DNA of 64,000 bases from Argopecten irradians (lineage: Eukaryota; Mollusca; Bivalvia; Pectinida; Pectinidae). This document shows, in pieces, positions 14,601 to 44,715 of the stretch; positions within the stretch are counted from its first letter, which is position 1; every line of letters starts with the position of its first letter. The translations under genes and the position numbers were made by a program. A model generated the notes under the pieces. That model ran no database searches, was not told the origin of the DNA, and worked only from the letters and a program-made list of their open reading frames with translations. The DNA is taken from contig NC_091143.1 of the NCBI RefSeq assembly GCF_041381155.1, positions 42,858,996 to 42,922,995 on the forward strand. Direction: 5' to 3'.

Positions 14601-14888
14601 GTGATATAAGTTATAGGCTAACATCTGATGAGGTGATATAAGTTATAGGCTAACATCTGATGTGGTGATATAAGTTATAGGCTAACATCTGATGTGGTGA
14701 TATAAGTTATAGGCTAACATCTGATGTGGTGATATAAGTTATAGGCTAACATCTGATGTGGTGATATAAGTTATAGGCTAACATCTGATGTGGTGATATA
14801 AGTTATAGGCTAACATCTGATGTGGTGATATAAGTTATAGGCTAACATCTGATGTGGTGATATAAGTTATAGGCCAACATCTGATGGG
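5638..14888. repeat. Main 32-bp satellite array, about 290 monomers
   Basis: Near-perfect head-to-tail array. The 32-bp monomer is TATAAGTTATA, then GGCTA, then ACATCTGATGT, then GGTGA: two perfect 11-bp dyads separated by two 5-bp spacers. Most monomers are identical. The commonest variant changes GATGTGG to GATGAGG, which spoils the second dyad; others change GGCTAAC to GGCCAAC or GATATAAG to GATACAAG. A few monomers carry small indels (near 7850, 8400, 8620, 9080, 10370, 13630). As 32 is not a multiple of three and stops occur in all frames, the array does not encode protein. Confidence 0.98.
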
Positions 14889-14898
14889 TTATATTATA

Positions 14899-15039
14899 CA
14901 GTTGTTGACTGGGGTTGAGGGCAACAGATGATTTGTTGGACCCGAAGACAAACTGTTGCCCGAGGCCGAAGGCCGAGGTCAACAGTTTGTGTGAGGGTCC
15001 AACAAATCATCTGTTGCCCGAAAACCCAGTCGATAACTG
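14899..15039. repeat. 141-bp subterminal hairpin of copy 1
   Basis: Two 69-bp arms face each other around a GAA loop inside GAGGCCGAAGGCCGAG. The arms match at roughly 85%. The best stretch, GGGCAACAGATGATTTG followed by TTGGACCC, is perfect over 25 bp. Each arm holds its own smaller inverted repeat (GGGCAACAG against CTGTTGCCC). The hairpin lies 3' of the gene, between satellite and 3' UTR. It may be a recombinase-binding or replication structure or an RNA 3'-end structure; nothing in the sequence decides. Confidence 0.9.
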
Positions 15040-15294
15040 TTTTGTTATACCCCAATGACTCAAAACATTTTAAATAGAGTAATTAATTTATTATTTTAAA
15101 CCACTTTAACAAATATATCAAATAACAAAACAACATAATACCACATCACGAAACAAGGAATTTTGTGTTGTTTTTTCCTATTAGATGCATCTTCTTAAAA
15201 TGAATAAACCAGTCTGAATTTATTCAAATTAAATCATTGTGAGTGTTAATGTTCATTCTGTCCATGAAATACATAGTCTTTGTCAAGCTGAAGC

Positions 15295-15300
15295 TTTATT
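15295..15300 (-). terminator. Candidate poly(A) signal, recombinase gene copy 1
   Basis: AATAAA on the minus strand, about 120 bp past the stop codon at 15422. It is conserved in copies 1-7 (for example 18587, 22098 and 35861 regions). A further AATAAA lies near 15217. This is a motif match only. Confidence 0.5.
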
Positions 15301-15421
15301 GTAACAATTAATGAAAAATACATGTATAGCATACATGTAACATTATAAGATACCGGTATAGATTTCAAAGTTATTAATTAACACTGACAGTATCATCACA
15401 ACATTGTGAAAAAAATCACAT

Positions 15422-16970
15422 TCAACTATTATAAATGTTGATGTTGCATCCGTGGAACGAAAAAACTGATTTTGCATGACTTTGCTGTGGAATATTTTCT
15501 ATACTTCCAAGCACATCCGGATTTTCAAGCAAAGCGGCTAGTTCCTTGTCATCTATATCCAGCACATCACAACATGTAGTTTCGTGAGGTGTATGTGAGT
15601 TGGGTATAACTACATTTACTGGAGCAATCTCCTTCATTGGTGGTTGCACAGAGCTTGAAGGTTGTGGAACAACTTTCTTTGCTAAAGCATATGACATTTC
15701 TCGTTTCTTCGTGTTACTTAATTTTGATGAATAGTGCTTCAAACTTGTTTCTGACTTGTGTTTTGATATGCCGATGATGTGTCGAGATTCATATCCACAT
15801 TCATCCAACATAGATATACATGTTGCCCTAATACAGTGGTTGGAATATGTAGTTCCGAGCCCAGCCTCACTACTTATGGACTGCATCATGTACCCTAGTT
15901 TATTTTTACCAAGTACCATGTTGTCGTACCAAACATGATTTTCGTCCTTAATTGACTGACGGGGTCGCTGCCAAAGCGCATCGCATAGTGGATTAAGTTT
16001 TACTGAATACTTCTCAAAACTTGCAACAGGACAATTTGGGTCTCCTGAAAAAAAAATAATGTAAAAATTAACTATTACTAACCGAATGATTCAAATACGA
16101 AATATGGATCTAACCTAGACCTTGTTGTTTAAATGTATCTTTTGGATAATCGTGGGGCGAGTGGGTTGAGACAAATTACAGTAGTAAAAGGTGACACGAG
16201 GAAATTTAGATTGCCTGTTGTAGAGCTTATCTCGGCACTTATGGACATTCGTGATTGGAATAAAAAATACATTACATACCTGGTTGCTCATACATTCTGC
16301 CCCCATCTTGATCATCATCAGCAGTATCTCCCCTGTGGTTCTTTGTCAGCCTCGACACACTACAGGTAACATAACGTCTGCCGTCAGCGTCAGACTGCAC
16401 TGTGTAATCATTTCTGGTCATGTTACGTAAATTTTCTCTACCTCTGTTACAAAAGTATAACATCAACTCGAAGAATACTTTCTGTTGTAGAGTTGTGGGT
16501 GTTTCTGTGCTGAACACTCCGCTGTCATACAGAACTTTCATGTCTGCTTCACTTATGATTTCTTTGTGTTTCACTTCGCCGGCTCCCTCTTTCTTGATTT
16601 TTACCATACTGGCATGAAATACGTCATTGGCGATCTTAAATCCGACGTCGTTGATTATGTCGATGCCATGGGACTTCTCAAAGGACTTTTGCAGCCCATA
16701 TCTTATAGATATCATGGTTTTTTTAGCATACATACTGCCGTCTTTTTTCCTTGCGGCGCAGTAGAACTTCCGTAGGATTTCACACAATTCGTCCACTGTA
16801 ACATTGGTAAGGGACGACCCAACTGTACATCCAACCGCTTCACAGTATTCATGAAGAAGATTTTCAGCAGTTCTGATAACGTTTTTAGTGTTTTTGCTAT
16901 CACGGTCGTTCAGAATCTTCTGAATTTCATCCTCTGTTGCTTCCGCAAATCGAGTGCTGCCTTCCGCCAT
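15422..16970 (-). CDS. Tyrosine recombinase (Crypton/DUF3504 type), copy 1, intact, two exons
   Basis: Exon 1 is 16970-16280 (691 nt), the intron 16279-16045 (235 bp, GTATGT...TTTTTTCAG), exon 2 16044-15422 (623 nt); together 437 codons plus stop with no break. The split codon joins GluGlnPro-Gly to AspProAsnCys. A helical N-terminal region (about 1-130) fits a core-binding domain. The catalytic set is visible: R176 in FCNRGREN, K210 in LTKNHRG, H300 and R303 in NHCIRAT, H326 in SKHKSE and nucleophile Y335 in LKHYSS; the 9-residue H-to-Y spacing matches known tyrosine recombinases. LGKNKLGYMM and DPNCPV resemble the recombinase-derived parts of KIAA1958/ZMYM-like proteins. The low-complexity tail ends in FHGCNINIYNS, a style seen in animal relatives. 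It would cut and rejoin DNA at element ends; the target is unknown. Confidence 0.88.
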
Positions 16971-17021
16971 TATGTTTGTTTACCAAACGATAAGAAGATT
17001 GACGTCGCATTGACATACCAT

Positions 17022-17166
17022 TGACGTCACGAATTGTTGGTGTGACGTCACTCCGGTCCAACAGCACATTTTAACAGTCGATTTTAACAGTTCTTTGGAC
17101 CGCTCGTCGGAACAGTTAATTTATTGGCATTTTTGTCAATAGAGTTTATATAGGAACTATTTTATA
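17022..17166 (-). promoter_or_regulatory. Recombinase promoter region: two CRE sites and TATA-like boxes, copy 1
   Basis: Two perfect TGACGTCA palindromes (17022-17029 and 17043-17050) lie 52-80 bp upstream of the ATG, with starts 21 bp apart (two helical turns); a half-site TGACGTCG lies at 17000. Further out, TATATAAAC (17144-17152) and TATAAAATAG (17157-17166) read on the minus strand are TATA-like. The arrangement is the same in copies 1-6. CREB/ATF control is an inference from the motif. Confidence 0.55.
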
Positions 17167-17174
17167 GGGGTATA

Positions 17175-18180
17175 ACATCTGATGAGGTGATATAAGTTAT
17201 AGGCTAACATCTGATGTGGTGATATAAGTTATAGGTCAACATCTGATGTGGTGATACAAGTTATAGGCTAACATCTGATGAGGTGATATAAATTATAGGC
17301 CAACATCTGATGTGGTGATGTTAATTTATATGCTAACACAGTGAGGTGATATAGTTATAGGCTAACATCTGATGGTGATATAAGTTATAGGCTAACATCT
17401 ACATCTGATGTGGTGATAAAGTTATAGGCTAACATCTGATGTGGTGATATAAGTTATAGGCTAACATCTGATGTGGTGATATAAGTTATAGGCTAACATC
17501 TGATGTGGTGATATAAGTTATAGGCTAACATCTGATGTGGTGATATAAGTTATAGGCTAACATCTGATGTGGTGATATAAGTTATAGGCTAACATCTGAT
17601 GTGGTGATATAAGTTATAGGCTAACATCTGATGTGGTGATATAAGTTATAGGCTAACATCTGATGAGGTGATATAAGTTATAGGCTAACATCTGATGAGG
17701 TGATATTAGTTATAGGCTTACATCTGATGTGGTGATACAAGTTATAGGCTAACATCTGATGTGGTGATATAAGTTATAGGCTAACATTTGATGTGGTGAT
17801 ATAAGTTATAGGCTAACATCTGATGTGGTGATATAAGTTATAGGCTAACATCTGATGAGGTGATATAAGTTATAGGCTAACATCTGATGTGGTGATATAA
17901 GTTATAGGCTAACATCTGATGTGGTGATATAAGTTATAGGCTAACATCTGATGTGGTGATATAAGTTATAGGCTAACATCTGATGTGGTGATATAAGTTA
18001 TAGGCTAACATCTGATGTGGTGATATAAGTTATAGGCTAACATCTGATGTGGTGATATAAGTTATAGGCTAACATCTGATGTGGTGATATAAGTTATAGG
18101 CCAACATCTGATGTGGTGATATAAGTTATAGGCTAACATCTGATGTGGTGATATAAGTTATAGGCCAACATCTGATGAGG
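17175..18180. repeat. 32-bp satellite spacer between copies 1 and 2 (~31 monomers)
   Basis: Same monomer as the main array. The first five monomers to the right of copy 1 carry a distinctive variant series (GGTCAAC, GATACAAG, TAAATTATAGGCC, then a TTTATATGC monomer) shared with copies 4 and 5 and partly with copy 2, so spacer and element were duplicated together. Confidence 0.95.
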
Positions 18181-18190
18181 TTATATTATA

Positions 18191-18331
18191 CAGTTGTTGA
18201 CTGGGGTTGAGGGCAACAGATGATTTGTTGGACCCGAAGACAAACTGTTGCCCGAGGCCGAAGGCCGAGGTCAACAGTTTGTGTGAGGGTCCAACAAATC
18301 ATCTGTTGCCCGAAAACCCAGTCGATAACTG
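18191..18331. repeat. 141-bp hairpin of copy 2
   Basis: Same two 69-bp arms and GAA loop as in copy 1, with no visible differences. Confidence 0.9.
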
Positions 18332-18712
18332 TTTTGTTATACCCCAATGACTCAAAACATTTTAAAAGAGTAATTAATTTATTATTTTAAACCACTTTAA
18401 CAAATATATCAAATAACAAAACAACATAATACCACATCACGAAACAAGGAATTTTGTGTTGTTTTTTCCTATTAGATGCATCTTCTTAAAATGAATAAAC
18501 CAGTCTGAATTTATTCAAATTAAATCATTGTGAGTGTTAATGTTCATTCTGTCCATGAAATACATAGTCTTTGTCAAGCTGAAGCTTTATTGTAACAATT
18601 AATGAAAAATACATGTATAGCATACATGTAACATTATAAGATACCGGTATAGATTTCAAAGTTATTAATTAACACTGACAGTATCATCACAACATTGTGA
18701 AAAAAATCACAT

Positions 18713-20263
18713 TCAACTATTATAAATGTTGATGTTGCATCCGTGGAACGAAAAAACTGATTTTGCATGACTTTGCTGTGGAATATTTTCTATACTTCCA
18801 AGCACATCCGGATTTTCAAGCAAAGCGGCTAGTTCCTTGTCATCTATATCCAGCACATCACAACATGTAGTTTCGTGAGGTGTATGTGAGTTGGGTATAT
18901 CTACATTGACTGGAGCAATCTCCTTCATTGGTGGTTGCACAGAGCTTGAAGGTTGTGGAACAACTTTCTTTGCTAAAGCATATGACATTTCTCGTTTCTT
19001 CGTGTTACTTAATTTTGATGAATAGTGCTTCAAACTTGTTTCTGACTTGTGTTTTGATATGCCGATGATGTGTCGAGATTCATATCCACATTCATCCAAC
19101 ATAGATATACATGTTGCCCTAATACAGTGGTTGGAATATGTAGTTCCGAGCCCAGCCTCACTACTTATGGACTGCATCATGTACCCTAGTTTATTTTTAC
19201 CAAGTACCATGTTGTCGTACCAAACATGATTTTCGTCCTTAATTGACTGACGGGGTCGCTGCCAAAGCGCATCGCATAGTGGATTAAGTTTTACTGAATA
19301 CTTCTCAAAACTTGCAACAGGACAATTTGGGTCTCCTGAAAAAAAAAATAATGTAAAAATTAACTATTACTAACCGAATGATTCAAATACGAAATATGGA
19401 TCTAACCTAGACCTTGTTGTTTAAATGTATCTTTTGGATAATCGTGGGGCGAGTGGGTTGAGACAAATTACAGTAGTAAAAGGTGACACGAGGAAATTTA
19501 GATTGCCTGTTGTAGAGCTTATCTCGGCACTTATGGACATTCGTGATTGGAATAAAAAATACATTACATACCTGGTTGCTCATACATTCTGCCCCCATCT
19601 TGATCATCATCAGCAGTATCTCCCCTGTGGTTCTTTGTCAGCCTCGACACACTACAGGTAACATAACGTCTGCCGTCAGCGTCAGACTGCACTGTGTAAT
19701 CATTTCTGGTCATGTTACGTAAATTTTCTCTACCTCTGTTACAAAAGTATAACATCAACTCGAAGAATACTTTCTGTTGTAGAGTTTTGGGTGTTTCTGT
19801 GCTGAACACTCCGCTGTCATACAGAACTTTCATGTCTGCTTCACTTATGATTTCTTTGTGTTTCACTTCGCCGGCTCCCTCTTTCTTGATTTTTACCATA
19901 CTGGCATGAAATACGTCATTGGCGATCTTAAATCCGACGTCGTTGATTATGTCGATGCCATGGGACTTCTCAAAGGACTTTTGCAGCCCATATCTTATAG
20001 ATATCATGGTTTTTTTTGCATACATACTGCCGTCTTTTTTCCTTGCGGCGCAGTAGAACTTCCGTAGGATTTCACACAATTCGTCCACTGTAACATTGGT
20101 AAGGGACGACCCAACTGTACATCCAACAGCTTCACAGTATTCATGAAGAAGATTTTCAGCAGTTCTGATAACGTTTTTTAGTGTTTTTGCTATCACGGTC
20201 GTTCAGAATCTTCTGAATTTCATCCTCTGTTGCTTCCGCAAATCGAGTGCTGCCTTCCGCCAT
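18713..20263 (-). pseudogene. Tyrosine recombinase copy 2, single-base frameshift near the start
   Basis: Exon 2 (19335-18713) is intact at 623 nt. Exon 1 (20263-19572) is 692 nt because a run of T near 20175 has one extra base, which puts the first ~22 codons out of frame with the rest. An internal ATG at 20196 opens a frame (MIAKTLK...) that continues through all catalytic residues, so a product about 22 residues shorter at the N-terminus is conceivable. A single extra base in a homopolymer is also a typical assembly error. One residue in the tail differs from other copies (NVDIPN for NVVIPN). Confidence 0.8.
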
Positions 20264-20314
20264 TATGTTTGTTTACCAAACGATAAGAAGATTGACGTCG
20301 CATTGACATACCAT

Positions 20315-20343
20315 TGACGTCACGAATTGTTGGTGTGACGTCA
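20315..20343 (-). promoter_or_regulatory. Paired CRE sites, copy 2
   Basis: TGACGTCA at 20315-20322 and 20336-20343, same 21-bp spacing and same distance to the ATG as in copy 1. Confidence 0.55.
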
Positions 20344-20467
20344 CTCCGGTCCAACAGCACATTTTAACAGTCGATTTTAACAGTTCTTTGGACCGCTCGT
20401 CGGAACAGTTAATTTATTGGCATTTTTGTCAATAGAGTTTATATAGGAACTATTTTATAGGGGTATA

Positions 20468-21691
20468 ACATCTGATGAGGTGATATAAGTTATAGGCTAA
20501 CATCTGATGTGGTGATATAAGTTATAGGTCAACATCTGATGTGGTGATAAAGTTATAGGCTAACATCTGATGAGTGATATAAATTATAGGCAACATCTGA
20601 TGTGGTGATAAGTTATAGCTAACATCTGATGGGTGATATAAGTTATAGGCTAACATCTGATGGGTGATATAAGTATAGGCTAACATCTGATGTGGTGATA
20701 CAAGTTATAGGCTAACATCTGATGTGGTGATATAAGTTATAGGCTAACATCTGATGTGGTGATAAAGTTATAGGCTAACATCTGATGTGGTGATATAAGT
20801 TATAGGCTAACATCTGATGTGGTGATATAAGTTTATAGGCTAACATCTGATGTGGTGATATAAGTTATAGGCTAACATCTGATGTGGTGATATAAGTTAT
20901 AGGCTAACATCTGATGTGGTGATATAAGTTATAGGCTAACATCTGATGTGGTGATATAAGTTATAGGCTAACATCTGATGTGGTGATATAAGTTATAGGC
21001 TAACATCTGATGTGGTGATATAAGTTATAGGCTAACATCTGATGTGGTGATATAAGTTAGTTATAGGCTAACATCTGATGTGGTGATATAAGTTATAGGC
21101 TAACATCTGATGTGGTGATATAAGTTATAGGCTAACATCTGATGTGGTGATATAAGTTATAGGCTAACATCTGATGAGGTGATATAAGTTATAGGCTAAC
21201 ATCTGATGAGGTGATATAAGTTATAGGCTAACATCTGATGTGGTGATATAAGTTATAGGCTAACATCTGATGTGGTGATATAAGTTATAGGCTAACATCT
21301 GATGAGGTGATATAAGTTATGCTAACATCTGATGTGGTGATATAAGTTATAGGCTAACATCTGATGAGGTGATATAAGTTATAGGCTAACATCTGATGTG
21401 GTGATATAAGTTATAGGCTAACATATCTGATGTGGTGATATAAGTTATAGGCTAACATCTGATGTGGTGATATAAGTTATAGGCTAACATCTGATGAGGT
21501 GATATAAGTTATAGGCTAACATCTGATGTGGTGATATAAGTTATAGGCTAACATTTGATGTGGTGATACAAGTTATAGGCTAACATCTGATGTGGTGATA
21601 TAAGTTATAGGCTAACATCTGATGAGGTGATATAAGTTATAGGCCAACATCTGATGTGGTGATATAAGTTATAGGCTAACATCTGATGAGG
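20468..21691. repeat. 32-bp satellite spacer between copies 2 and 3 (~38 monomers)
   Basis: Same monomer. The first ~250 bases next to copy 2 contain many one- or two-base deletions (GATAAAG, GATGAGTGATA, GATGGGTGATA), unlike the clean remainder, which suggests locally poor consensus. Confidence 0.95.
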
Positions 21692-21701
21692 TTATATTAT
21701 A

Positions 21702-21842
21702 CAGTTGTTGACTGGGGTTGAGGGCAACAGATGATTTGTTGGACCCGAAGACAAACTGTTGCCCGAGGCCGAAGGCCGAGGTCAACAGTTTGTGTGAGGG
21801 TCCAACAAATCATCTGTTGCCCGAAAACCCAGTCGATAACTG
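21702..21842. repeat. 141-bp hairpin of copy 3
   Basis: Same arms and loop as copy 1. Confidence 0.9.
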
Positions 21843-22223
21843 TTTTGTTATACCCCAATGACTCAAAATATTTCTAAAGAGTAATTAATTAATTATTTTA
21901 AACCACTTTAACAAATATATCAAATAACAAAACAACATAATACCACATCACGAAACAAGGAATTTTGTGTTGTTTTTTCCTATTAGATGCATCTTCTTAA
22001 AATGAATAAACCAGTCTGAATTTATTCAAATTAAATCATTGTGAGTGTTAATGTTCATTCTGTCCATGAAATACATAGTCTTTGTCAAGCTGAAGCTTTA
22101 TTGTAACAATTAATGAAAAATACATGTATAGCATACATGTAACATTATAAGATACCGGTATAGATTTCAAAGTTATTAATTAACACTGACAGTATCATCA
22201 CAACATTGTGAAAAAAATCACAT

Positions 22224-23772
22224 TCAACTATTATAAATGTTGATGTTGCATCCGTGGAACGAAAAAACTGATTTTGCATGACTTTGCTGTGGAATATTTT
22301 CTATACTTCCAAGCACATCCGGATTTTCAAGCAAAGCGGCTAGTTCCTTGTCATCTATATCCAGCACATCACAACATGTAGTTTCGTGAGGTGTATGTGA
22401 GTTGGGTATAACTACATTTACTGGAGCAATCTCCTTCATTGGTGGTTGCACAGAGCTTGAAGGTTGTGGAACAACTTTCTTTGCTAAAGCATATGACATT
22501 TCTCGTTTCTTCGTGTTACTTAATTTTGATGAATAGTGCTTCAAACTTGTTTCTGACTTGTGTTTTGATATGCCGATGATGTGTCGAGATTCATATCCAC
22601 ATTCATCCAACATAGATATACATGTTGCCCTAATACAGTGGTTGGAATATGTAGTTCCGAGCCCAGCCTCACTACTTATGGACTGCATCATGTACCCTAG
22701 TTTATTTTTACCAAGTACCATGTTGTCGTACCAAACATGATTTTCGTCCTTAATTGACTGACGGGGTCGCTGCCAAAGCGCATCGCATAGTGGATTAAGT
22801 TTTACTGAATACTTCTCAAAACTTGCAACAGGACAATTTGGGTCTCCTGAAAAAAAAATAATGTAAAAATTAACTATTACTAACCGAATGATTCAAATAC
22901 GAAATATGGATCTAACCTAGACCTTGTTGTTTAAATGTATCTTTTGGATAATCGTGGGGGAGTGGGTTGAGACAAATTACAGTAGTAAAAGGTGACACGA
23001 GGAAATTTAGATTGCCAGTTGTAGAGCTTATCTCGGCACTTATGGACATTCGTGATTGGAATAAAAAAATACATTACATACCTGGTTGCTCATACATTCT
23101 GCCCCCATCTTGATCATCATCAGCAGTATCTCCCCTGTGGTTCTTTGTCAGCCTCGACACACTACAGGTAACATAACGTCTGCCGTCAGTGTCAGACTGC
23201 ACTGTGTAATCATTTCTGGTCATGTTACGTAAATTTTCTCTACCTCTGTTACAAAAGTATAACATCAACTCGAAGAATACTTTCTGTTGTAGAGTTTTGG
23301 GTGTTTCTGTGCTGAACACTCCGCTGTCATACAGAACTTTCATGTCTGCTTCACTTATGATTTCTTTGTGTTTGACTTCGCCGGCTCCCTCTTTCTTGAT
23401 TTTTACCATACTGGCATGAAATACGTCATTGGCGATCTTAAATCCGACGTCGTTGATTATGTCGATGCCATGGGACTTCTCAAAGGACTTTTGCAGCCCA
23501 TATCTTATAGATATCATGGTTTTTTTAGCATACATACTGCCGTCTTTTTTCCTTGCGGCGCAGTAGAACTTCCGTAGGATTTCACACAATTCGTCCACTG
23601 TAACATTGGTAAGGGACGACCCAACTGTACATCCAACAGCTTCACAGTATTCATGAAGAAGATTTTCAGCAGTTCTGATAACGTTTTTAGTGTTTTTGCT
23701 ATCACGGTCGTTCAGAATCTTCTGAATTTCATCCTCTGTTGCTTCCGCAAATCGAGTGCTGCCTTCCGCCAT
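22224..23772 (-). CDS. Tyrosine recombinase (Crypton/DUF3504 type), copy 3, intact, two exons
   Basis: Exon 1 is 23772-23082 (691 nt), the intron 23081-22847 (235 bp), exon 2 22846-22224 (623 nt); 437 codons plus stop, same splice phase as copy 1. All six catalytic positions are present. Differences from copy 1 include TETPKTLQQ for TETPTTLQQ and QSDTDG for QSDADG, both away from the active-site motifs. With copy 1 this is one of two whole genes in the window, on the other sequence haplotype, so both haplotypes include a coding-competent member. Confidence 0.88.
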
Positions 23773-23823
23773 TATGTTTGTTTACCAAACGATAAGAAGA
23801 TTGACGTCGCATTGACATACCAT

Positions 23824-23852
23824 TGACGTCACGAATTGTTGGTGTGACGTCA
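23824..23852 (-). promoter_or_regulatory. Paired CRE sites, copy 3
   Basis: TGACGTCA at 23824-23831 and 23845-23852, conserved in spacing and distance to the ATG. Confidence 0.55.
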
Positions 23853-23976
23853 CTCCGGTCCAACAGCACATTTTAACAGTCGATTTTAACAGTTCTTTGG
23901 ACCGCTCGTCGGAACAGTTAATTTATTGGCATTTTTGTCAATAGAGTTTATATAGGAACTATTTTATAGGGGTATA

Positions 23977-25126
23977 ACATCTGATGAGGTGATATAAGTT
24001 ATAGGCTAACATCTGATGTGGTGATATAAGTTATAGGCTAACATCTGATGTGGTGATATAGGTTATAGGCTAACATCTGATGAGGTGATATAAGTTATAG
24101 GCTAACATCTGATGTGGTGATATAAGTTATAGGCTAACATCTGATGTGGTGATATAAGTTATAGGCTAACATCTGATGTGGTGATATAAGTTATAGGCTA
24201 ACATCTGATGTGGTGATATAAGTTATAGGCTAACATCTGATGTGGTGATATAAGTTATAGGCTAACATCTGATGTGGTGATATAAGTTATAGGCTAACAT
24301 CTGATGTGGTGATATAAGTTATAGGCTAACATCTGATGTGGTGATATAAGTTATAGGCTAACATCTGATGTGGTGATATAAGTTATAGGCTAACATCTGA
24401 TGTGGTGATATAAGTTATAGGCCAACATCTGATGTGGTGATACAAGTTATCGGCTAACATCTGATGTGGTGATACAAGTTATAGGCTAACATCTGATGTG
24501 GTGATATAAGTTATAGGCTAACATCTGATGTGGTGATATATGTTATAGGCTAACATCTGATGTGGTGATATAAGTTATAGGCTAACATCTGATGTTGATA
24601 TAAGTTATAGGCTAACATCTGATGTGGTGTAAGTATAATAGGCTAACATTGATGTGATAGTATAGGCTAACATCTGATGGGTGATATAAGTTATAGGCTA
24701 AATGGGGTATATAGTTATGGCTAACATCTGATGTGGTGATATAGTATAGGCTAACATGTGGTGATGATGTGGTGATATAAGTTATAGGCTAACATCTGAT
24801 GTGGTGATATAAGTTATAGGCTAACATCTGATGTGGTGATATAAGTTATAGGCTAACATCTGATGTGGTGATATAAGTTATAGGCTAACATCTGATGTGG
24901 TGATATAAGTTATAGGCTAACATCTGATGTGGTGATATAAGTTATAGGCTAACATCTGATGTGGTGATATAAGTTATAGGCTAACATCTGATGTGGTGAT
25001 ATAAGTTATAGGCTAACATCTGATGTGGTGATATAAGTTATAGGCCAACATCTGATGTGGTGATATAAGTTATAGGCTAACATCTGATGTGGTGATATAA
25101 GTTATATAGGCTAACATCTGATGAGG
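23977..25126. repeat. 32-bp satellite spacer between copies 3 and 4 (~36 monomers)
   Basis: Mostly clean monomers. A ~170-base patch near 24590-24770 has several short deletions and truncated monomers, again resembling poor consensus. Confidence 0.95.
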
Positions 25127-25136
25127 TTATATTATA

Positions 25137-25277
25137 CAGTTGTTGACTGGGGTTGAGGGCAACAGATGATTTGTTGGACCCGAAGACAAACTGTTGCCCG
25201 AGGCCGAAGGCCGAGGTCAACAGTTTGTGTGAGGGTCCAACAAATCATCTGTTGCCCGAAAACCCAGTCGATAACTG
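25137..25277. repeat. 141-bp hairpin of copy 4
   Basis: Same arms and loop as copy 1. Confidence 0.9.
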
Positions 25278-25658
25278 TTTTGTTATACCCCAATGACTCA
25301 AAACATTTTAAAAGAGTAATTAATTTATTATTTTAAACCACTTTAACAAATATATCAAATAACAAAACAACATAATACCACATCACGAAACAAGGAATTT
25401 TGTGTTGTTTTTTCCTATTAGATGCATCTTCTTAAAATGAATAAACCAGTCTGAATTTATTCAAATTAAATCATTGTGAGTGTTAATGTTCATTCTGTCC
25501 ATGAAATACATAGTCTTTGTCAAGCTGAAGCTTTATTGTAACAATTAATGAAAAATACATGTATAGCATACATGTAACATTATAAGATACCGGTATAGAT
25601 TTCAAAGTTATTAATTAACACTGACAGTATCATCACAACATTGTGAAAAAAATCACAT

Positions 25659-27211
25659 TCAACTATTATAAATGTTGATGTTGCATCCGTGGAACGAAAA
25701 AACTGATTTTGCATGACTTTGCTGTGGAATATTTTCTATACTTCCAAGCACATCCGGATTTTCAAGCAAAGCGGCTAGTTCCTTGTCTCATCTATATCCA
25801 GCACATCACAACATGTAGTTTCGTGAGGTGTATGTGAGTTGGGTATAACTACATTTACTGGAGCAATCTCCTTCATTGGTGGTTGCACAGAGCTTGAAGG
25901 TTGTGGAACAACTTTCTTTGCTAAAGCATATGACATTTCTCGTTTCTTCGTGTTACTTAATTTTGATGAATAGTGCTTCAAACTTGTTTCTGACTTGTGT
26001 TTTGATATGCCGATGATGTGTCGAGATTCATATCCACATTCATCCAACATAGATATACATGTTGCCCTAATACAGTGGTTGGAATATGTAGTTCCGAGCC
26101 CAGCCTCACTACTTATGGACTGCATCATGTACCCTAGTTTATTTTTACCAAGTACCATGTTGTCGTACCAAACATGATTTTCGTCCTTAATTGACTGACG
26201 GGGTCGCTGCCAAAGCGCATCGCATAGTGGATTAAGTTTTACTGAATACTTCTCAAAACTTGCAACAGGACAATTTGGGTCTCCTGAAAAAAAAAATAAT
26301 GTAAAAATTAACTATTACTAACCGAATGATTCAAATACGAAATATGGATCTAACCTAGACCTTGTTGTTTAAATGTATCTTTTGGATAATCGTGGGGCGA
26401 GTGGGTTGAGACAAATTACAGTAGTAAAAGGTGACACGAGGAAATTTAGATTGCCTGTTGTAGAGCTTATCTCGGCACTTATGGACATTCGTGATTGGAA
26501 TAAAAAATACATTACATACCTGGTTGCTCATACATTCTGCCCCCATCTTGATCATCATCAGCAGTATCTCCCCTGTGGTTCTTTGTCAGCCTCGACACAC
26601 TACAGGTAACATAACGTCTGCCGTCAGCGTCAGACTGCACTGTGTAATCATTTCTGGTCATGTTACGTAAATTTTCTCTACCTCTGTTACAAAAGTATAA
26701 CATCAACTCGAAGAATACTTTCTGTTGTAGAGTTTTGGGTGTTTCTGTGCTGAACACTCCGCTGTCATACAGAACTTTCATGTCTGCTTCACTTATGATT
26801 TCTTTGTGTTTCACTTCGCCGGCTCCCTCTTTCTTGATTTTTACCATACTGGCATGAAATACGTCATTGGCGATCTTAAATCCGACGTCGTTGATTATGT
26901 CGATGCCATGGGACTTCTCAAAGGACTTTTGCAGCCCATATCTTATAGATATCATGGTTTTTTTTAGCATACATACTGCCGTCTTTTTTCCTTGCGGCGC
27001 AGTAGAACTTCCGTAGGATTTCACACAATTCGTCCACTGTAACATTGGTAAGGGACGACCCAACTGTACATCCAACAGCTTCACAGTATTCATGAAGAAG
27101 ATTTTCAGCAGTTCTGATAACGTTTTTAGTGTTTTTGCTATCACGGTCGTTCAGAATCTTCTGAATTTCATCCTCTGTTGCTTCCGCAAATCGAGTGCTG
27201 CCTTCCGCCAT
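25659..27211 (-). pseudogene. Tyrosine recombinase copy 4, two small indels
   Basis: Exon 1 (27211-26520) is 692 nt, one base too long through an extra T near 26960, which breaks the frame after about 84 codons. Exon 2 (26283-25659) is 625 nt, with a two-base TC insertion near 25787 that gives an early stop (...DIDETRN) after the catalytic Y335. The exon 2 change would cost only the tail; the exon 1 change removes the catalytic frame. The same TC insertion occurs in copy 6. Confidence 0.8.
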
Positions 27212-27262
27212 TATGTTTGTTTACCAAACGATAAGAAGATTGACGTCGCATTGACATACCAT

Positions 27263-27291
27263 TGACGTCACGAATTGTTGGTGTGACGTCA
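27263..27291 (-). promoter_or_regulatory. Paired CRE sites, copy 4
   Basis: TGACGTCA at 27263-27270 and 27284-27291, conserved arrangement. Confidence 0.55.
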
Positions 27292-27415
27292 CTCCGGTCC
27301 AACAGCACATTTTAACAGTCGATTTTAACAGTTCTTTGGACCGCTCGTCGGAACAGTTAATTTATTGGCATTTTTGTCAATAGAGTTTATATAGGAACTA
27401 TTTTATAGGGGTATA

Positions 27416-28524
27416 ACATCTGATGAGGTGATATAAGTTATAGGCTAACATCTGATGTGGTGATATAAGTTATAGGTCAACATCTGATGTGGTGATACAA
27501 GTTATAGGCTAACATCTGATGAGGTGATATAAATTATAGGCCAACATCTGATGTGGTGATGTAATTTATATGCTAACATCTGATGAGGTGATATAAGTTA
27601 TAGGCTAACATCTGATGTGGTGATATAAGTTATAGGCTAACATCTGATGTGGTGATATAAGTTATAGGCTAACATCTGATGTGGTGATATAAGTTATAGG
27701 CTAACATCTGATGTGGTGATATAAGTTATAGGCTAACATCTGATGTGGTGATACAAGTTATAGGCTAACATCTGATGTGGTGATATAAGTTATAGGCTAA
27801 CATCTGATGTGGTGATGTGGTGATATAAGTTATAGGCTAACATCTGATGTGGTGATATAAGTTATAGGCTAACATCTGATGTGGTGATATAAGTTATAGG
27901 CTAACATCTGATGTGGTGATATAAGTTATAGGCTAACATCTGATGTGGTGATATAAGTTATAGGCTAACATCTGATGTGGTGATATAAGTTATAGGCTAA
28001 CATCTGATGTGGTGATATAAGTTATAGGCTAACATCTGATGTGGTGATATAAGTTATAGGCTAACATCTGATGTGGTGATATAAGTTATAGGCTAACATC
28101 TGATGAGGTGATATAAGTTATAGGCTAACATCTGATGTGGTGATATAAGTTATAGGCTAACATCTGATGTGGTGATATAAGTTATAGGCTAACATCTGAT
28201 GTGGTGATATAAGTTATAGGCTAACATCTGATGTGGTGATATAAGTTATAGGCTAACATCTGATGTGGTGATATAAGTTATAGGCTAACATCTGATGTGG
28301 TGATATAAGTTATAGGCTAACATCTGATGTGGTGATATAAGTTATAGGCTAACATCTGATGATGTGATATAAGTTATAGGCTAACATATGATGTGGTGAT
28401 ATAAGTTATAGGCTAACATTTGATGTGGTGATATAAGTTATAGGCCAACATCTGATGTGGTGATATAAGTTATAGGCTAACATCTGATGTGGTGATATAA
28501 GTTATAGGCCAACATCTGATGAGG
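27416..28524. repeat. 32-bp satellite spacer between copies 4 and 5 (~35 monomers)
   Basis: Same monomer. Opens with the A-type variant series (GGTCAAC, GATACAAG, TAAATTATAGGCC, GATGTAATTTATATGC) and ends with GGCCAACATCTGATGAGG at the copy 5 junction. Confidence 0.95.
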
Positions 28525-28534
28525 TTATATTATA

Positions 28535-28675
28535 CAGTTGTTGACTGGGGTTGAGGGCAACAGATGATTTGTTGGACCCGAAGACAAACTGTTGCCCGAG
28601 GCCGAAGGCCGAGGTCAACAGTTTGTGTGAGGGTCCAACAAATCATCTGTTGCCCGAAAACCCAGTCGATAACTG
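28535..28675. repeat. 141-bp hairpin of copy 5
   Basis: Same arms and loop as copy 1. Confidence 0.9.
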
Positions 28676-29056
28676 TTTTGTTATACCCCAATGACTCAAA
28701 ATATTTCTAAAGAGTAATTAATTAATTATTTTAAACCACTTTAACAAATATATCAAATAACAAAACAACATAATACCACATCACGAAACAAGGAATTTTG
28801 TGTTGTTTTTTCCTATTAGATGCATCTTCTTAAAATGAATAAACCAGTCTGAATTTATTCAAATTAAATCATTGTGAGTGTTAATGTTCATTCTGTCCAT
28901 GAAATACATAGTCTTTGTCAAGCTGAAGCTTTATTGTAACAATTAATGAAAAATACATGTATAGCATACATGTAACATTATAAGATACCGGTATAGATTT
29001 CAAAGTTATTAATTAACACTGACAGTATCATCACAACATTGTGAAAAAAATCACAT

Positions 29057-30609
29057 TCAACTATTATAAATGTTGATGTTGCATCCGTGGAACGAAAAAA
29101 CTGATTTTGCATGACTTTGCTGTGGAATATTTTCTATACTTCCAAGCACATCCGGATTTTCAAGCAAAGCGGCTAGTTCCTTGTCATCTATATCCAGCAC
29201 ATCACAACATGTAGTTTCGTGAGGTGTATGTGAGTTGGGTATAACTACATTTACTGGAGCAATCTCCTTCATTGGTGGTTGCACAGAGCTTGAAGGTTGT
29301 GGAACAACTTTCTTTGCTAAAGCATATGACATTTCTCGTTTCTTCGTGTTACTTAATTTTGATGAATAGTGCTTCAAACTTGTTTCTGACTTGTGTTTTG
29401 ATATGCCGATGATGTGTCGAGATTCATATCCACATTCATCCAACATAGATATACATGTTGCCCTAATACAGTGGTTGGAATATGTAGTTCCGAGCCCAGC
29501 CTCACTACTTATGGACTGCATCATGTACCCTAGTTTATTTTTACCAAGTACCATGTTGTCGTACCAAACATGATTTTCGTCCTTAATTGACTGACGGGGT
29601 CGCTGCCAAAGCGCATCGCATAGTGGATTAAGTTTTACTGAATACTTCTCAAAACTTGCAACAGGACAATTTGGGTCTCCTGAAAAAAAAAATAATGTAA
29701 AAATTAACTATTACTAACCGAATGATTCAAATACGAAATATGGATCTAACCTAGACCTTGTTGTTTAAATGTATCTTTTGGATAATCGTGGGGCGAGTGG
29801 GTTGAGACAAATTACAGTAGTAAAAGGTGACACGAGGAAATTTAGATTGCCAGTTGTAGAGCTTATCTCGGCACTTATGGACATTCGTGATTGGAATAAA
29901 AAAATACATTACATACCTGGTTGCTCATACATTCTGCCCCCATCTTGATCATCATCAGCAGTATCTCCCCTGTGGTTCTTTGTCAGCCTCGACACACTAC
30001 AGGTAACATAACGTCTGCCGTCAGCGTCAGACTGCACTGTGTAATCATTTCTGGTCATGTTACGTAAATTTTCTCTACCTCTGTTACAAAAGTATAACAT
30101 CAACTCGAAGAATACTTTCTGTTGTAGAGTTTTGGGTGTTTCTGTGCTGAACACTCCGCTGTCATACAGAACTTTCATGTCTGCTTCACTTATGATTTCT
30201 TTGTGTTTCACTTCGCCGGCTCCCTCTTTCTTGATTTTTACCATACTGGCATGAAATACGTCATTGGCGATCTTAAATCCGACGTCGTTGATTATGTCGA
30301 TGCCATGGGACTTCTCAAAGGACTTTTGCAGCCCATATCTTATATAGATATCATGGTTTTTTTAGCATACATACTGCCGTCTTTTTTCCTTGCGGCGCAG
30401 TAGAACTTCCGTAGGATTTCACACAATTCGTCCACTGTAACATTGGTAAGGGACGACCCAACTGTACATCCAACAGCTTCACAGTATTCATGAAGAAGAT
30501 TTTCAGCAGTTCTGATAACGTTTTTAGTGTTTTTGCTATCACGGTCGTTCAGAATCTTCTGAATTTCATCCTCTGTTGCTTCCGCAAATCGAGTGCTGCC
30601 TTCCGCCAT
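29057..30609 (-). pseudogene. Tyrosine recombinase copy 5, two-base insertion in exon 1
   Basis: Exon 2 (29679-29057) is intact. Exon 1 (30609-29917) is 693 nt because a TA is duplicated near 30343, splitting the frame after about 88 codons. The second half reopens from an internal ATG at 30244 and retains R176 and K210, but loses most of the core-binding region. Dinucleotide insertions of TA also occur in copy 6. Confidence 0.8.
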
Positions 30610-30660
30610 TATGTTTGTTTACCAAACGATAAGAAGATTGACGTCGCATTGACATACCAC

Positions 30661-30689
30661 TGACGTCACGAATTGTTGGTGTGACGTCA
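30661..30689 (-). promoter_or_regulatory. Paired CRE sites, copy 5
   Basis: TGACGTCA at 30661-30668 and 30682-30689, conserved arrangement. Confidence 0.55.
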
Positions 30690-30813
30690 CTCCGGTCCAA
30701 CAGCACATTTTAACAGTCGATTTTAACAGTTCTTTGGACCGCTCGTCGGAACAGTTAATTTATTGGCATTTTTGTCAATAGAGTTTATATAGGAACTATT
30801 TTATAGGGGTATA

Positions 30814-31893
30814 ACATCTGATGAGGTGATATAAGTTATAGGCTAACATCTGATGTGGTGATATAAGTTATAGGTCAACATCTGATGTGGTGATACAAGT
30901 TATAGGCTAACATCTGATGAGGTGATATAAATTATAGGCCAACATCTGATGTGGTGATGTAATTTATATGCTAACATCTGATGAGGTGATATAAGTTATA
31001 GGCTAACATCTGATGAGGTGATATAAGTTATAGGCTAACATCTGATGTGGTGATACAAGTTATAGGCTAACATCTGATGTGGTGATATAAGTTATAGGCT
31101 AACATCTGATGTGGTGATATAAGTTATAGGCTAACATCTGATGTGGTGATATAAGTTATAGGCTAACATCTGATGTGGTGATATAAGTTATAGGCTAACA
31201 TCTGATGTGGTGATATAAGTTATCGGCTAACATCTGATGTGGTGATATAAGTTATAGGCTAACATCTGATGTGGTGATATATGTTATAGGCTAACATCTG
31301 ATGAGGTGATATAAGTTATAGGCTAACATCTGATGAGGTGATATAAGTTATAGGCTAACATCTGATGTGGTGATACAAGTTATAGGCTAACATCTGATGT
31401 GGTGATATAAGTTATAGGCTAACATCTGATGTGGTGATATAAGTTATAGGCTAACATCTGATGAGGTGATATAAGTTATAGGCTAACATCTGATGTGGTG
31501 ATATAAGTTATAGGCTAACATCTGATGAGGTGATATAAGTTATAGGCTAACATCTGATGTGGTGATATAAGTTATAGGCTAACATCTGATGTGGTGATAT
31601 AAGTTATAGGCTAACATCTGATGTGGTGATATAAGTTATAGGCTAACATCTGATGTGGTGATATAAGTTATAGGCTAACATCTGATGATGTGATATAAGT
31701 TATAGGCTAACATATGATGTGGTTATAGGCTAACATCGTGATGAGGTGATATAAGTTATAGGCTAACATTTGATGTGGTGATATAAGTTATAGGCCAACA
31801 TCTGATGTGGTGATATAAGTTATAGGCTAACATCTGATGTGGTGATATAAGTTATAGGCTAACATCTGATGAGGTGATATAAGTTCTGATGAG
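30814..31893. repeat. 32-bp satellite spacer between copies 5 and 6 (~34 monomers)
   Basis: Opens with the A-type series. The last ~200 bases before copy 6 are disordered, with a partial monomer directly at the junction. Confidence 0.95.
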
Positions 31894-31903
31894 TTATATT
31901 ATA

Positions 31904-32044
31904 CAGTTGTTGACTGGGGTTGAGGGCAACAGATGATTTGTTGGACCCGAAGACAAACTGTTGCCCGAGGCCGAAGGCCGAGGTCAACAGTTTGTGTGAG
32001 GGTCCAACAAATCATCTGTTGCCCGAAAACCCAGTCGATAACTG
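31904..32044. repeat. 141-bp hairpin of copy 6
   Basis: Same arms and loop as copy 1. Confidence 0.9.
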
Positions 32045-32425
32045 TTTTGTTATACCCCAATGACTCAAAATATTTCTAAAGAGTAATTAATTAATTATTT
32101 TAAACCACTTTAACAAATATATCAAATAACAAAACAACATAATACCACATCACGAAACAAGGAATTTTGTGTTGTTTTTTCCTATTAGATGCATCTTCTT
32201 AAAATGAATAAACCAGTCTGAATTTATTCAAATTAAATCATTGTGAGTGTTAATGTTCATTCTGTCCATGAAATACATAGTCTTTGTCAAGCTGAAGCTT
32301 TATTGTAACAATTAATGAAAAATACATGTATAGCATACATGTAACATTATAAGATACCGGTATAGATTTCAAAGTTATTAATTAACACTGACAGTATCAT
32401 CACAACATTGTGAAAAAAATCACAT

Positions 32426-33968
32426 TCAACTATTATAAATGTTGATGTTGCATCCGTGGAACGAAAAAACTGATTTTGCATGACTTTGCTGTGGAATATT
32501 TTCTATACTTCCAAGCACATCCGGATTTTCAAGCAAAGCGGCTAGTTCCTTGTCTCATCTATATCCAGCACATCACAACATGTAGTTTCGTGAGGTGTAT
32601 GTGAGTTGGGTATAACTACATTTACTGGAGCAATCTCCTTCATTGGTGGTTGCACAGAGCTTGAAGGTTGTGGAACAACTTTCTTTGCTAAAGCATATGA
32701 CATTTCTCGTTTCTTCGTGTTACTTAATTTTGATGAATAGTGCTTCAAACTTGTTTCTGACTTGTGTTTTGATATGCCGATGATGTGTATCCACATTCAT
32801 CCAACATAGATATACATGTTGCCCTAATACAGTGGTTGGAATATGTAGTTCCGAGCCCAGCCTCACTACTTATGGACTGCATCATGTACCCTAGTTTATT
32901 TTTACCAAGTACCATGTTGTCGTACCAAACATGATTTTCGTCCTTAATTGACTGACGGGGTCGCTGCCAAAGCGCATCGCATAGTGGATTAAGTTTTACT
33001 GAATACTTCTCAAAACTTGCAACAGGACAATTTGGGTCTCCTGAAAAAAAAATAATGTAAAAATTAACTATTACTAACCGAATGATTCAAATACGAAATA
33101 TGGATCTAACCTAGACCTTGTTGTTTAAATGTATCTTTTGGATAATCGTGGGGCGAGTGGGTTGAGACAAATTACAGTAGTAAAAGGTGACACGAGGAAA
33201 TTTAGATTGCCAGTTGTAGAGCTTATCTCGGCACTTATGGACATTCGTGATTGGAATAAAAAAATACATTACATACCTGGTTGCTCATACATTCTGCCCC
33301 CATCTTGATCATCATCAGCAGTATCTCCCCTGTGGTTCTTTGTCAGCCTCGACACACTACAGGTAACATAAGTCTGCCGTCAGCGTCAGACTGCACTGTG
33401 TAATCATTTCTGGTCATGTTACGTAAATTTTCTCTACCTCTGTTACAAAAGTATATAACATCAACTCGAAGAATACTTTCTGTTGTAGAGTTTTGGGTGT
33501 TTCTGTGCTGAACACTCCGCTGTCATACAGAACTTTCATGTCTGCTTCACTTATGATTTCTTTGTGTTTCACTTCGCCGGCTCCCTCTTTCTTGATTTTT
33601 ACCATACTGGCATGAAATACGTCATTGGCGATCTTAAATCCGACGTCGTTGATTATGTCGATGCCATGGGACTTCTCAAAGGACTTTTGCAGCCCATATC
33701 TTATAGATATCATGGTTTTTTTAGCATACATACTGCCGTCTTTTTTCCTTGCGGCGCAGTAGAACTTCCGTAGGATTTCACACAATTCGTCCACTGTAAC
33801 ATTGGTAAGGGACGACCCAACTGTACATCCAACCGCTTCACAGTATTCATGAAGAAGATTTTCAGCAGTTCTGATAACGTTTTTAGTGTTTTTGCTATCA
33901 CGGTCGTTCAGAATCTTCTGAATTTCATCCTCTGTTGCTTCCGCAAATCGAGTGCTGCCTTCCGCCAT
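32426..33968 (-). pseudogene. Tyrosine recombinase copy 6, several indels
   Basis: Exon 1 (33968-33277) carries a one-base loss near 33372 and a TA insertion near 33454; exon 2 (33040-32426) carries a 10-base deletion near 32788, between the HxxR motif and H326, and the TC insertion near 32554 also seen in copy 4. The first 184 residues are open (33414-33968), which includes R176 but not the other catalytic positions. Confidence 0.8.
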
Positions 33969-34019
33969 TATGTTTGTTTACCAAACGATAAGAAGATTGA
34001 CGTCGCATTGACATACCAT

Positions 34020-34048
34020 TGACGTCACGAATTGTTGGTGTGACGTCA
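34020..34048 (-). promoter_or_regulatory. Paired CRE sites, copy 6
   Basis: TGACGTCA at 34020-34027 and 34041-34048, conserved arrangement. Confidence 0.55.
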
Positions 34049-34172
34049 CTCCGGTCCAACAGCACATTTTAACAGTCGATTTTAACAGTTCTTTGGACCG
34101 CTCGTCGGAACAGTTAATTTATTGGCATTTTTGTCAATAGAGTTTATATAGGAACTATTTTATAGGGGTATA

Positions 34173-35454
34173 ACATCTGATGAGGTGATATAAGTTATAG
34201 GCTAACATCTGATGTGGTGATATAAGTTATAGGCTAACATCTGATGTGGTGATATAGGTTATAGGCTAACATCTGATGTGGTGATAAAGTTATAGGCTAA
34301 CATCTGATGTGGTGATATAGGTTATAGGCTAACATCTGATGTGGTGATACAAGTTATAGGCCAACATCTGATGAGGTGATAAATTATAGGCTAACATCTG
34401 ATGAGGTGATATTAATTATAGGCTAACATCTGATGAGGTGATATAGGTTATAGGCTTACATCTGATGTGGTGATACAAGTTATAGGCTAACATCTGTTGT
34501 GGTGATAGAAGTTATAGGCTAACATCTGTTGTGGTGATAGAAGTTATAGGCTAACATCTGATGTGGTGATATAGGTTATAGGCTAACATCTGATGAGGTG
34601 ATATAAGTTATAGGCTAACATCTGATGTGGTGATATAAGTTATAGGCTAACATCTGATGTGGTGATATAAGTTATAGGCTAACATCTGATGTGGTGATAT
34701 AAGTTATAGGCTAACATCTGATGTGGTGATATAAGTTATAGGCCAACATCTGATGAGGTGATAAATTATAGGCTAACATCTGATGTGGTGATATAAGTTA
34801 TAGGCTAACATCTGATGTGGTGATATAAGTTATAGGCTAACATCTGATGTGGTGATATAAGTTATAGGCCAACATCTGATGAGGTGATATAGGTTATAGG
34901 CTAACATCTGATGTGGTGATATAAGTTATAGGCTAACATCTGATGTGGTGATATAAGTTATAGGCTAACATCTGATGTGGTGATATAAGTTATAGGCTAA
35001 CATCTGATGAGGTGATATAAGTTATAGGCTAACATCTGATGTGGTGATATAAGTTATAGGCTAACATCTGATGTGGTGATATAAGTTATAGGCTAACATC
35101 TGATGTGGTGATATAAGTTATAGGCTAACATCTGTGATGGGTGATATAAGTTATAGGCTAACATCTGATGTGGTGATATAAGTTATAGGCTAACATCTGA
35201 TGTGGTGATATAAGTTATAGGCTAACATCTGATGTGGTGATATAAGTTATAGGCTAACATCTGATGTGGTGATATAAGTTATAGGTAACATCTATGGGTG
35301 ATAGTATAGGCTAACATCTGATGTGGTGATATAAGTTATAGGCTAACATCTGATGTGGTGATATAAGTTATAGGCTAACATCTGATGAGGTGATATAAGT
35401 TATAGGCTAACATCTGATGTGGTGATATAAGTTATAGGCCAACATCTGATGAGG
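34173..35454. repeat. 32-bp satellite spacer between copies 6 and 7 (~40 monomers)
   Basis: Opens with the B-type series and is richer in variant monomers (GATATAGG, CTGTTGTGG, GATATTAATTATAGG) than the other spacers. It returns to consensus monomers toward copy 7. Confidence 0.95.
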
Positions 35455-35464
35455 TTATATTATA

Positions 35465-35605
35465 CAGTTGTTGACTGGGGTTGAGGGCAACAGATGATTT
35501 GTTGGACCCGAAGACAAACTGTTGCCCGAGGCCGAAGGCCGAGGTCAACAGTTTGTGTGAGGGTCCAACAAATCATCTGTTGCCCGAAAACCCAGTCGAT
35601 AACTG
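35465..35605. repeat. 141-bp hairpin of copy 7
   Basis: Same arms and loop as copy 1. Confidence 0.9.
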
Positions 35606-35987
35606 TTTTGTTATACCCCAATGACTCAAAACATTTCTAAAGAGTAATTAATTAATTATTTTAAACCACTTTAACAAATATATCAAATAACAAAACAACA
35701 TAATACCACATCACGAAACAAGGAATTTTTGTGTTGTTTTTTCCTATTAGATGCATCTTCTTAAAATGAATAAACCAGTCTGAATTTATTCAAATTAAAT
35801 CATTGTGAGTGTTAATGTTCATTCTGTCCATGAAATACATAGTCTTTGTCAAGCTGAAGCTTTATTGTAACAATTAATGAAAAATACATGTATAGCATAC
35901 ATGTAACATTATAAGATACCGGTATAGATTTCAAAGTTATTAATTAACACTGACAGTATCATCACAACATTGTGAAAAAAATCACAT

Positions 35988-36510
35988 TCAACTATTATAA
36001 ATGTTGATGTTGCATCCGTGGAACGAAAAAACTGATTTTGCATGACTTTGCTGTGGAATATTTTCTATACTTCCAAGCACATCCGGATTTTCAAGCAAAG
36101 CGGCTAGTTCCTTGTCATCTATATCCAGCACATCACAACATGTAGTTTCGTGAGGTGTATGTGAGTTGGGTATAACTACATTTACTGGAGCAATCTCCTT
36201 CATTGGTGGTTGCACAGAGCTTGAAGGTTGTGGAACAACTTTCTTTGCTAAAGCATATGACATTTCTCGTTTCTTCGTGTTACTTAATTTTGATGGAATA
36301 GTGCTTCAAACTTGTTTCTGACTTGTGTTTTGATATGCCGATGATGTGTCGAGATTCATATCCACATTCATCCAACATAGATATACATGTTGCCCTAATA
36401 CAGTGGTTGGAATATGTAGTTCCGAGCCCAGCCTCACTACTTATGGACTGCATCATGTACCCTAGTTTATTTTTACCAAGTACCATGTTGTCGTACCAAA
36501 CATGATTTTC
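35988..36510 (-). pseudogene. Tyrosine recombinase exon 2 fragment, copy 7
   Basis: Holds the HxxR, H326 and Y335 region and the tail. There is an extra G near 36294, just after the catalytic tyrosine codon, and the upstream part of the gene is lost at the 36510 junction. It is not functional as written. Confidence 0.85.
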
Positions 36511-39960: not shown

Positions 39961-39999
39961 TCACATTTTTGTAAAGGATCTCAGCCCCTGCGAATTGAT

Positions 40000-44705: not shown

Positions 44706-44715
44706 NNNNNNNNNN
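44706..44715. other. Assembly gap (10 N)
   Basis: Ten N, a placeholder of unknown true size. It interrupts the FANK1-like exon that starts at 44790. Confidence 1.

Follow-up and report, generated by a model that had tools for sequence, protein, structure and literature searches.

How does a transposon that encodes its own recombinase come to alternate, unit after unit, with a short satellite? The question is raised by a 64,000-nucleotide stretch of the Argopecten irradians genome (NCBI RefSeq assembly GCF_041381155.1, contig NC_091143.1, positions 42,858,996 to 42,922,995 of the forward strand), here called the window, in which copies of a ~2.29-kb element carrying a tyrosine recombinase gene are separated by tracts of a 32-bp satellite. 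Here, the element is identified as CryptonA-like by its enzyme and structure, and element plus satellite is identified as the amplified unit. The explanation that we favour, with moderate confidence, is one site-specific integration of the element into the satellite, followed by co-amplification of the two through unequal exchange.

Element and satellite are amplified as one unit

A blastn search of the window with copy 1 recovered six complete copies and one truncated copy of the element, all in one orientation and together spanning 14895-36510. The matches lie at 14895-17176 (the query), 18187-20469, 21698-23978, 25133-27417, 28531-30815, 31900-34174 and 35461-36510 (truncated), each on the plus strand relative to copy 1 and 98.99-99.69% identical to it. 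Substitution divergence between pairs of the six complete copies (E1 to E6) is 0.09-0.44%, and these copies also differ by small indels, several of them at homopolymers. Tandem Repeats Finder (TRF) placed the 32-bp satellite, with the monomer ATCTGATGTGGTGATATAAGTTATAGGCTAAC, between all element copies, in arrays A1 (17177..18181), A2 (20470-21692), A3 (23979-25127), A4 (27418-28525), A5 (30816-31894) and A6 (34175-35455). Successive elements are separated by 31, 39, 34, 35, 34 and 39 monomers (partial last monomer counted) in arrays that vary in length and in the variants they hold, and about 1.1 kb of satellite has been multiplied with each element. An uninterrupted satellite array, A0, occupies 5639-14894 (its end is 14889 in the feature list; TRF 288.7 copies, 98% matches). 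The initial annotation, made from the sequence alone, had described seven same-orientation copies that alternate with the satellite and differ by well under a few percent, and the blastn and TRF results bear this out; the seven starts it gave mark these junctions too, with a constant shift of 6 bp to the left of the blastn starts.

The elements are evenly spaced, and a spacing range this small has a P of 1.75e-5 under random independent insertion. Furthermore, on the right flank non-consensus monomers recur at matching offsets in 31 shared pairs, with 2.2 expected (0/5000 shuffles), and in 16 pairs with 1.9 expected when the first monomer is left out (0/5000 shuffles). A gap-tolerant test of the right flank gave 10.4, above the null maximum of 8.6. 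Taken together, the even spacing and the shared flanking variants show that element and satellite were amplified as a unit, as the annotation had proposed; its further statement that neighbouring copies share satellite variants holds strongly for the right flank and only weakly for the left. The right flanks fall into two types, A1/A2/A4/A5 and A3/A6.

These results speak directly to the possibility that one active element inserted repeatedly and independently into the satellite array. Such a history would fit the two copies with intact enzyme genes, the low divergence and the intact junctions at the same phase, but the even spacing and the rare shared monomers require co-amplification, and at most two insertions can be argued for, corresponding to the two right-flank types. 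We give repeated insertion hardly any credence. Under co-amplification of a single insertion, exchange of sequence between the copies afterwards is weakly supported by the four-gamete test, which 5/15 pairs of informative sites violate, each of these pairs including site 1953.

The inter-element satellite (17177-35455) has departed from the consensus nearly five times as far as A0, with 130 substitutions in 6717 bp where A0 has 39 in 9254 bp. Of these substitutions, 44/130 in the inter-element arrays and 21/39 in A0 are T>A changes, and an AGG core variant is found in 30/184 inter-element monomers as against 16/278 (Fisher P 0.0004). This AGG enrichment was considered as a sign of recombinase activity and rejected, because the inter-element arrays hold more substitutions overall.

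Both element ends carry a 15-bp stretch of the satellite

At both ends of the element lies a 15-bp direct repeat, AACATCTGATGAGGT, that is itself part of the satellite monomer and forms the putative core of the junctions. On the left, the satellite runs through AACATCTGATGAGGT and the element then begins with TATATTATACAG, while on the right the element ends in TTTTATAGGGGTAT and the satellite resumes from AACATCTGATGAGGTGATATAAG. The repeat is exact at 5/7 left junctions and 6/6 right junctions; in E2, for example, exact copies occupy 18167..18181 on the left and 20467..20481 on the right (both plus strand). When the element is taken out together with one repeat, the 32-bp register is regained in four of the six complete copies, E2-E5. 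Because the 15-bp repeats are satellite sequence and lie within the monomer, they may represent target sequence and not element termini, both being possible.

If the two ends were joined, as in a circle, the predicted junction would read GGGGTATAACATCTGATGAGGTTATATTATAC, in which perfect 6-bp inverted arms surround 10 bp (TATAAC-ATCTGATGAG-GTTATA). In typical tyrosine recombinase sites, inverted repeats of 11-13 bp enclose 6-8 bp (PMC3212892), and the predicted junction resembles such a core site, a likeness that is fair but imperfect. No circle-type junction of right end to left end was found in the window, all seven left-end matches lying at satellite junctions. Beyond the core, the element ends show no significant homology to the satellite (P 0.15 for the right end and 0.30 for the left), and an interior 22-mer resembling the satellite at 15/22 positions was likewise dismissed, being matched by 285/300 shuffled monomers.

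It may be asked whether a site-specific event is needed at all. The element could have landed without targeting and been carried along by amplification of the satellite, the 15-bp repeats being the trace of that one event. A single insertion would be enough, the core dyad is statistically unexceptional, and no terminal repeats were reported for animal Cryptons in 2011 (Kojima and Jurka, PMC3212892). However, the 15-bp direct repeat and the register restored in E2-E5 are the expected trace of site-specific recombination, and 15 bp exceeds the 4-6 bp repeats described for other Cryptons (PMC3212892). An incidental hitch-hiker is, in our judgement, rather unlikely. Site-specific integration is preferred, and the in-phase junctions support the satellite monomer as the integration site, a narrower claim than the annotation's idea of a recombinase that lives in, and perhaps maintains, a satellite.

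The recombinase gene and its product

In copy E1 (14890..17173; delimited by blastn and the spliced open reading frame (ORF), with the recombinase gene on the minus strand, as in all copies) the gene comprises exon 1 (16280..16970), exon 2 (15422..16044) and a GT...AG intron of 235 bp (16045..16279). Removal of the intron yields a protein of 437 aa, the same length as a public Argopecten irradians protein. The intact 437-aa spliced protein is encoded by 2/6 complete copies, E1 and E3 (21693..23975), in agreement with the annotation, which had reported two whole genes with all catalytic residues; the residue set is present in copy 1. Early stops arise through frameshifts in E2 (18182..20466), E4 (25128..27414), E5 (28526..30812) and E6 (31895..34171), the last of which has a 10-bp deletion and a disrupted left core, and some of these frameshifts may be sequencing errors. 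E7 (35456..36510) is truncated at 36510, beyond which the sequence is unlike both element and satellite. The ORF survey covered frames of at least 120 aa, of which the window has 12; all 10 within the elements are tyrosine recombinase exons, some of them frameshifted, and none encodes a Helitron Rep/helicase.

The copy-1 protein matches DUF3504 (PF12012) with 47.3 bits (cut-off 29.7, E 3e-12). Among 36 homologues, our own selection from the 120 matches listed of 145 found, 31/36 match DUF3504 and 31/36 match Phage_integrase. The Argopecten irradians protein has 97% identity over 100% of the length (12/437 residues differ), and identity is 63% with a protein of the oyster Magallana gigas that belongs to a cluster of 87 sequences. 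This one protein family would by itself most likely place the window in a scallop. The spliced copy-1 protein has the full set R176, E179, K210, H300, R303, H326 and Y335, which are taken to be the catalytic residues of the tyrosine recombinase family. Across the 36 homologues, R176 and E179 never vary and the other five are at least 90% conserved. The DUF3504 domain and this complete catalytic set uphold the earlier assignment to the Crypton-type tyrosine recombinases.

An AlphaFold model of the Argopecten protein (P0001) has a mean predicted local distance difference test score (pLDDT) of 79 and a predicted template modelling score (pTM) of 0.62. With this model, the first PDB match in Foldseek is QRICH1 (E 3.8e-9), with poor superposition (template modelling (TM) scores 0.32/0.44), followed by many Cre structures, including Cre-loxP, at E 4e-8 and above and TM about 0.4/0.5. 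A sequence search of the PDB gave a single, irrelevant match (E 0.71). Judged by its residues and predicted model, the protein has the appearance of a tyrosine recombinase with a complete catalytic set and a QRICH1/Cre-like predicted fold. A short C-terminal motif (roughly FxxCxVxI; P0001 residues 426-437) follows a poorly conserved linker in many homologues, and strands are predicted there at low confidence in the AlphaFold model.

Could this enzyme itself drive the array? Each monomer would then act as a weak attachment site, and circles of element and monomers would be excised and re-inserted, driving both copy number and satellite turnover. Junctions at one satellite phase, a single orientation throughout, an enzyme intact in 2/6 complete copies and intervening arrays unlike in length and variants are all compatible with such a process, as is the greater sharing on the right, which a fixed left crossover combined with a variable right one would produce. 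Unequal exchange, however, accounts for the same data without enzyme activity; moreover, the spacing is too regular for circles of variable size, some variants are common to the left flanks too, and the window holds no circle junction, 7/7 left ends being at satellite junctions. A recombinase-driven array is unlikely, though worth keeping in view. For amplification after a single integration, as we prefer, unequal exchange or conversion is sufficient, and a role of the recombinase in maintaining the array is possible.

Motifs near the element ends

The left end holds an imperfect palindrome or hairpin of 143 bp (14898..15040) that shares 82.5% identity with its reverse complement; as single-stranded DNA, 14889-15045 has a fold of -61.9 kcal/mol (z -17.4). 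Of the 14 occurrences of the word AACAG/CTGTT in the element, nine fall no more than 150 bp from an end. This clustering has P 1.2e-5, uncorrected for 475 5-mers, and is due in part to the palindrome; for the right end taken separately, the uncorrected P is 0.002. Four AACAG motifs at the right end (17060..17115, plus strand, starts 17060, 17073, 17086 and 17111, spacing 13, 13 and 25 bp) are candidate arm-type binding sites. Three GACGTC motifs (17001..17049, plus strand), which are cAMP response element (CRE)-like, lie directly ahead of the start codon of the recombinase. A search of Rfam at its gathering threshold gave no match.

Sequence quality and other repeats in the window

An eighth fragment of the element, at 3845..5637 (minus strand, 79.7% identity by blastn), is indel-rich and A/T-biased. 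It is absent from the initial annotation, as are the 15-bp direct repeats in phase with the satellite and the hairpin at the left end. Global alignment with copy 1 gave 86 substitutions and 142 indel events, with transitions to transversions at 27:59, 6/86 substitutions from A and identical stretches alternating with garbled ones, while blastn with other scoring gave 166 mismatches and 95 gap openings. Satellite 6-mers number 60 in the fragment and 15 in copy 1 (200 shuffles, mean 26, maximum 47), and satellite 9- and 10-mers in the fragment are within the shuffle range. The satellite at 1-3597 is likewise A/T-biased and indel-rich, with 240 substitutions and 329 indels in 3462 bp; A0, for comparison, has 39 substitutions and 17 indels in 9254 bp. 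The error pattern ends where clean satellite begins, at 5639. As a proof of ancient partnership between element and satellite, the 80%-identical fragment was rejected, its indel-rich, A/T-biased pattern being common to the neighbouring satellite. This suggests a poor consensus and not age, and 1-5637 is probably a low-quality consensus or a mis-join.

Such errors raise the question of whether stitching of long reads across the repeats has produced a false alternation or a false copy number. The indel-rich, A/T-biased sequence of 1-5637 with its sharp join to clean satellite at 5637/5639, the homopolymer indels among the differences between copies and a run of ten N at 44706-44715 would all be in keeping with an assembly product. 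Each unit, however, carries private substitutions and private satellite variants, and assemblers usually collapse repeat arrays and seldom invent distinct copies. We consider it highly unlikely that the array of integrated and co-amplified elements is an artefact of this kind.

Several further repeats lie elsewhere in the window. Arrays at 36999-38219 (~161-bp repeats) and 50299-51257 (~156-bp repeats) have similar units in TRF, GGGGCCCCACCCCTCAGCCCCTAGGGGTCGGACC and GGGCCCCGCCCCTCCTGCCCCCGGGGGGTCAGAGCC, and are apparently diverged members of one repeat family. Palindromic words like TTCATGAAC are dense but irregularly spaced at 39998-40285, a 68-bp repeat is present three times at 54726-54929 (99% matches), and minisatellites at 58255-58320 and 59725-59804, 1.4 kb apart, have the word TTTCTGCGTTTAT in common.

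Discussion

The data allow a step-by-step model of how the array may have arisen. A CryptonA-like tyrosine recombinase transposon, probably in circular form, would have entered a single monomer of a 32-bp satellite that was already in place, with the crossover falling within the 15-bp stretch that is now found at both ends. The element and about 1.1 kb of satellite would then have been multiplied head to tail, the simplest routes being gene conversion or unequal exchange among the satellite tracts. Afterwards, sequence exchange from copy to copy would have continued. In this sequence of events we infer the circular intermediate, the making of the junction by the recombinase and unequal exchange as the amplifier.

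Several points weigh against this account. Its support comes from the genomic sequence of one locus, and a single insertion could yield all copies, so that for the satellite as a target n = 1. The exact core is absent at 2/7 left junctions, one base having been lost in E1 and the core being disrupted in E6. The dyad of the circle junction was rejected as statistical proof of a core site, the best dyad with 11-bp arms having P 0.25 in a shuffle test set for arms of that length. The copy-1 protein itself has no match to Pfam Phage_integrase. On the left flank, sharing is weak: it does not reach significance at exact offsets, where P is 0.19, or 0.82 once the nearest monomer is left out, and the gap-tolerant score is 6.6, between the 95% (4.9) and 99% (6.8) points of a null with maximum 9.4, or 5.2 without the nearest monomer. 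Some left sharing is nevertheless seen in this comparison, and the strong left/right asymmetry of the exact-offset test was rejected on that ground. On the right flank, the gap-tolerant score without the first monomer is 6.70, about the level of the 99% null (6.67), and the four-gamete evidence for exchange comes from the single site 1953.

How animal Cryptons select and join their targets has, to our knowledge, yet to be established. The two junctions at one satellite phase provide a concrete attachment-site candidate for this poorly understood class of animal transposon. Furthermore, satellite and recombinase are physically linked here, which makes enzyme-driven satellite turnover testable. 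If it proved true, a Crypton enzyme would shelter in a satellite while expanding, contracting and spreading it, in a selfish partnership of recombinase and satellite.

The initial annotation had also called the locus akin to a cassette array. Bacterial integrons combine a tyrosine recombinase with repeated recombination sites; here, in contrast, each unit holds the recombinase itself and no exchangeable cassettes or cargo are seen, so the comparison stands as an analogy only, one that extends to mechanism at most. Collections of viral, bacterial and archaeal sequences yielded no confirmed relatives, a result with little bearing on animals: the viral collection gave 0 satellite matches and 6 and 16 pattern stretches with 0 relatives, and the genome collection gave 0 matches and 35 pattern stretches, again with 0 relatives. 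Among the titles and opening lines of abstracts in the literature matches listed, whose coverage leaves most subscription journals outside, none describes a Crypton in a satellite.

Among the closest known systems is CryptonA, which likewise has animal hosts, a single DUF3504-related tyrosine recombinase gene and retained catalytic residues (PMC3212892). The scallop element differs from it in the 15-bp direct repeats, perhaps target sequence, that flank it within a satellite, and in its 143-bp left palindrome, its intron and its tandem co-amplification with the satellite. Domesticated DUF3504 genes have lost their catalytic residues (PMC3212892), whereas these residues are present here, which separates the element from KIAA1958/QRICH1-type genes.

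Other mobile elements are also lodged in repeats. Endogenous nimaviruses of crustaceans encode a eukaryotic tyrosine recombinase and lie in the tandem repeat (TAACC)n, and reads suggest that some copies are concatemers or episomes, but they are large DNA viruses whose enzymes, according to that study, are not closely related to those of Cryptons and whose target is a 5-bp telomere motif (PMC10871703). Dada is a DNA transposon that resides in repeated, relatively harmless targets, namely multicopy small RNA genes, yet it uses a DDE transposase, makes 6-7 bp target duplications and targets genes (PMC3706591). The Helitron/Helentron satellites of oysters, a frequent kind there, also tie a bivalve mobile element to a tandem repeat, but in them the repeats sit in the centre of the element, whereas here a tyrosine recombinase element sits inside the satellite (PMC11136912). 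Set beside these systems, a Crypton that lies in phase within a satellite and is amplified with it appears to be a new variant of repeat-lodged elements.

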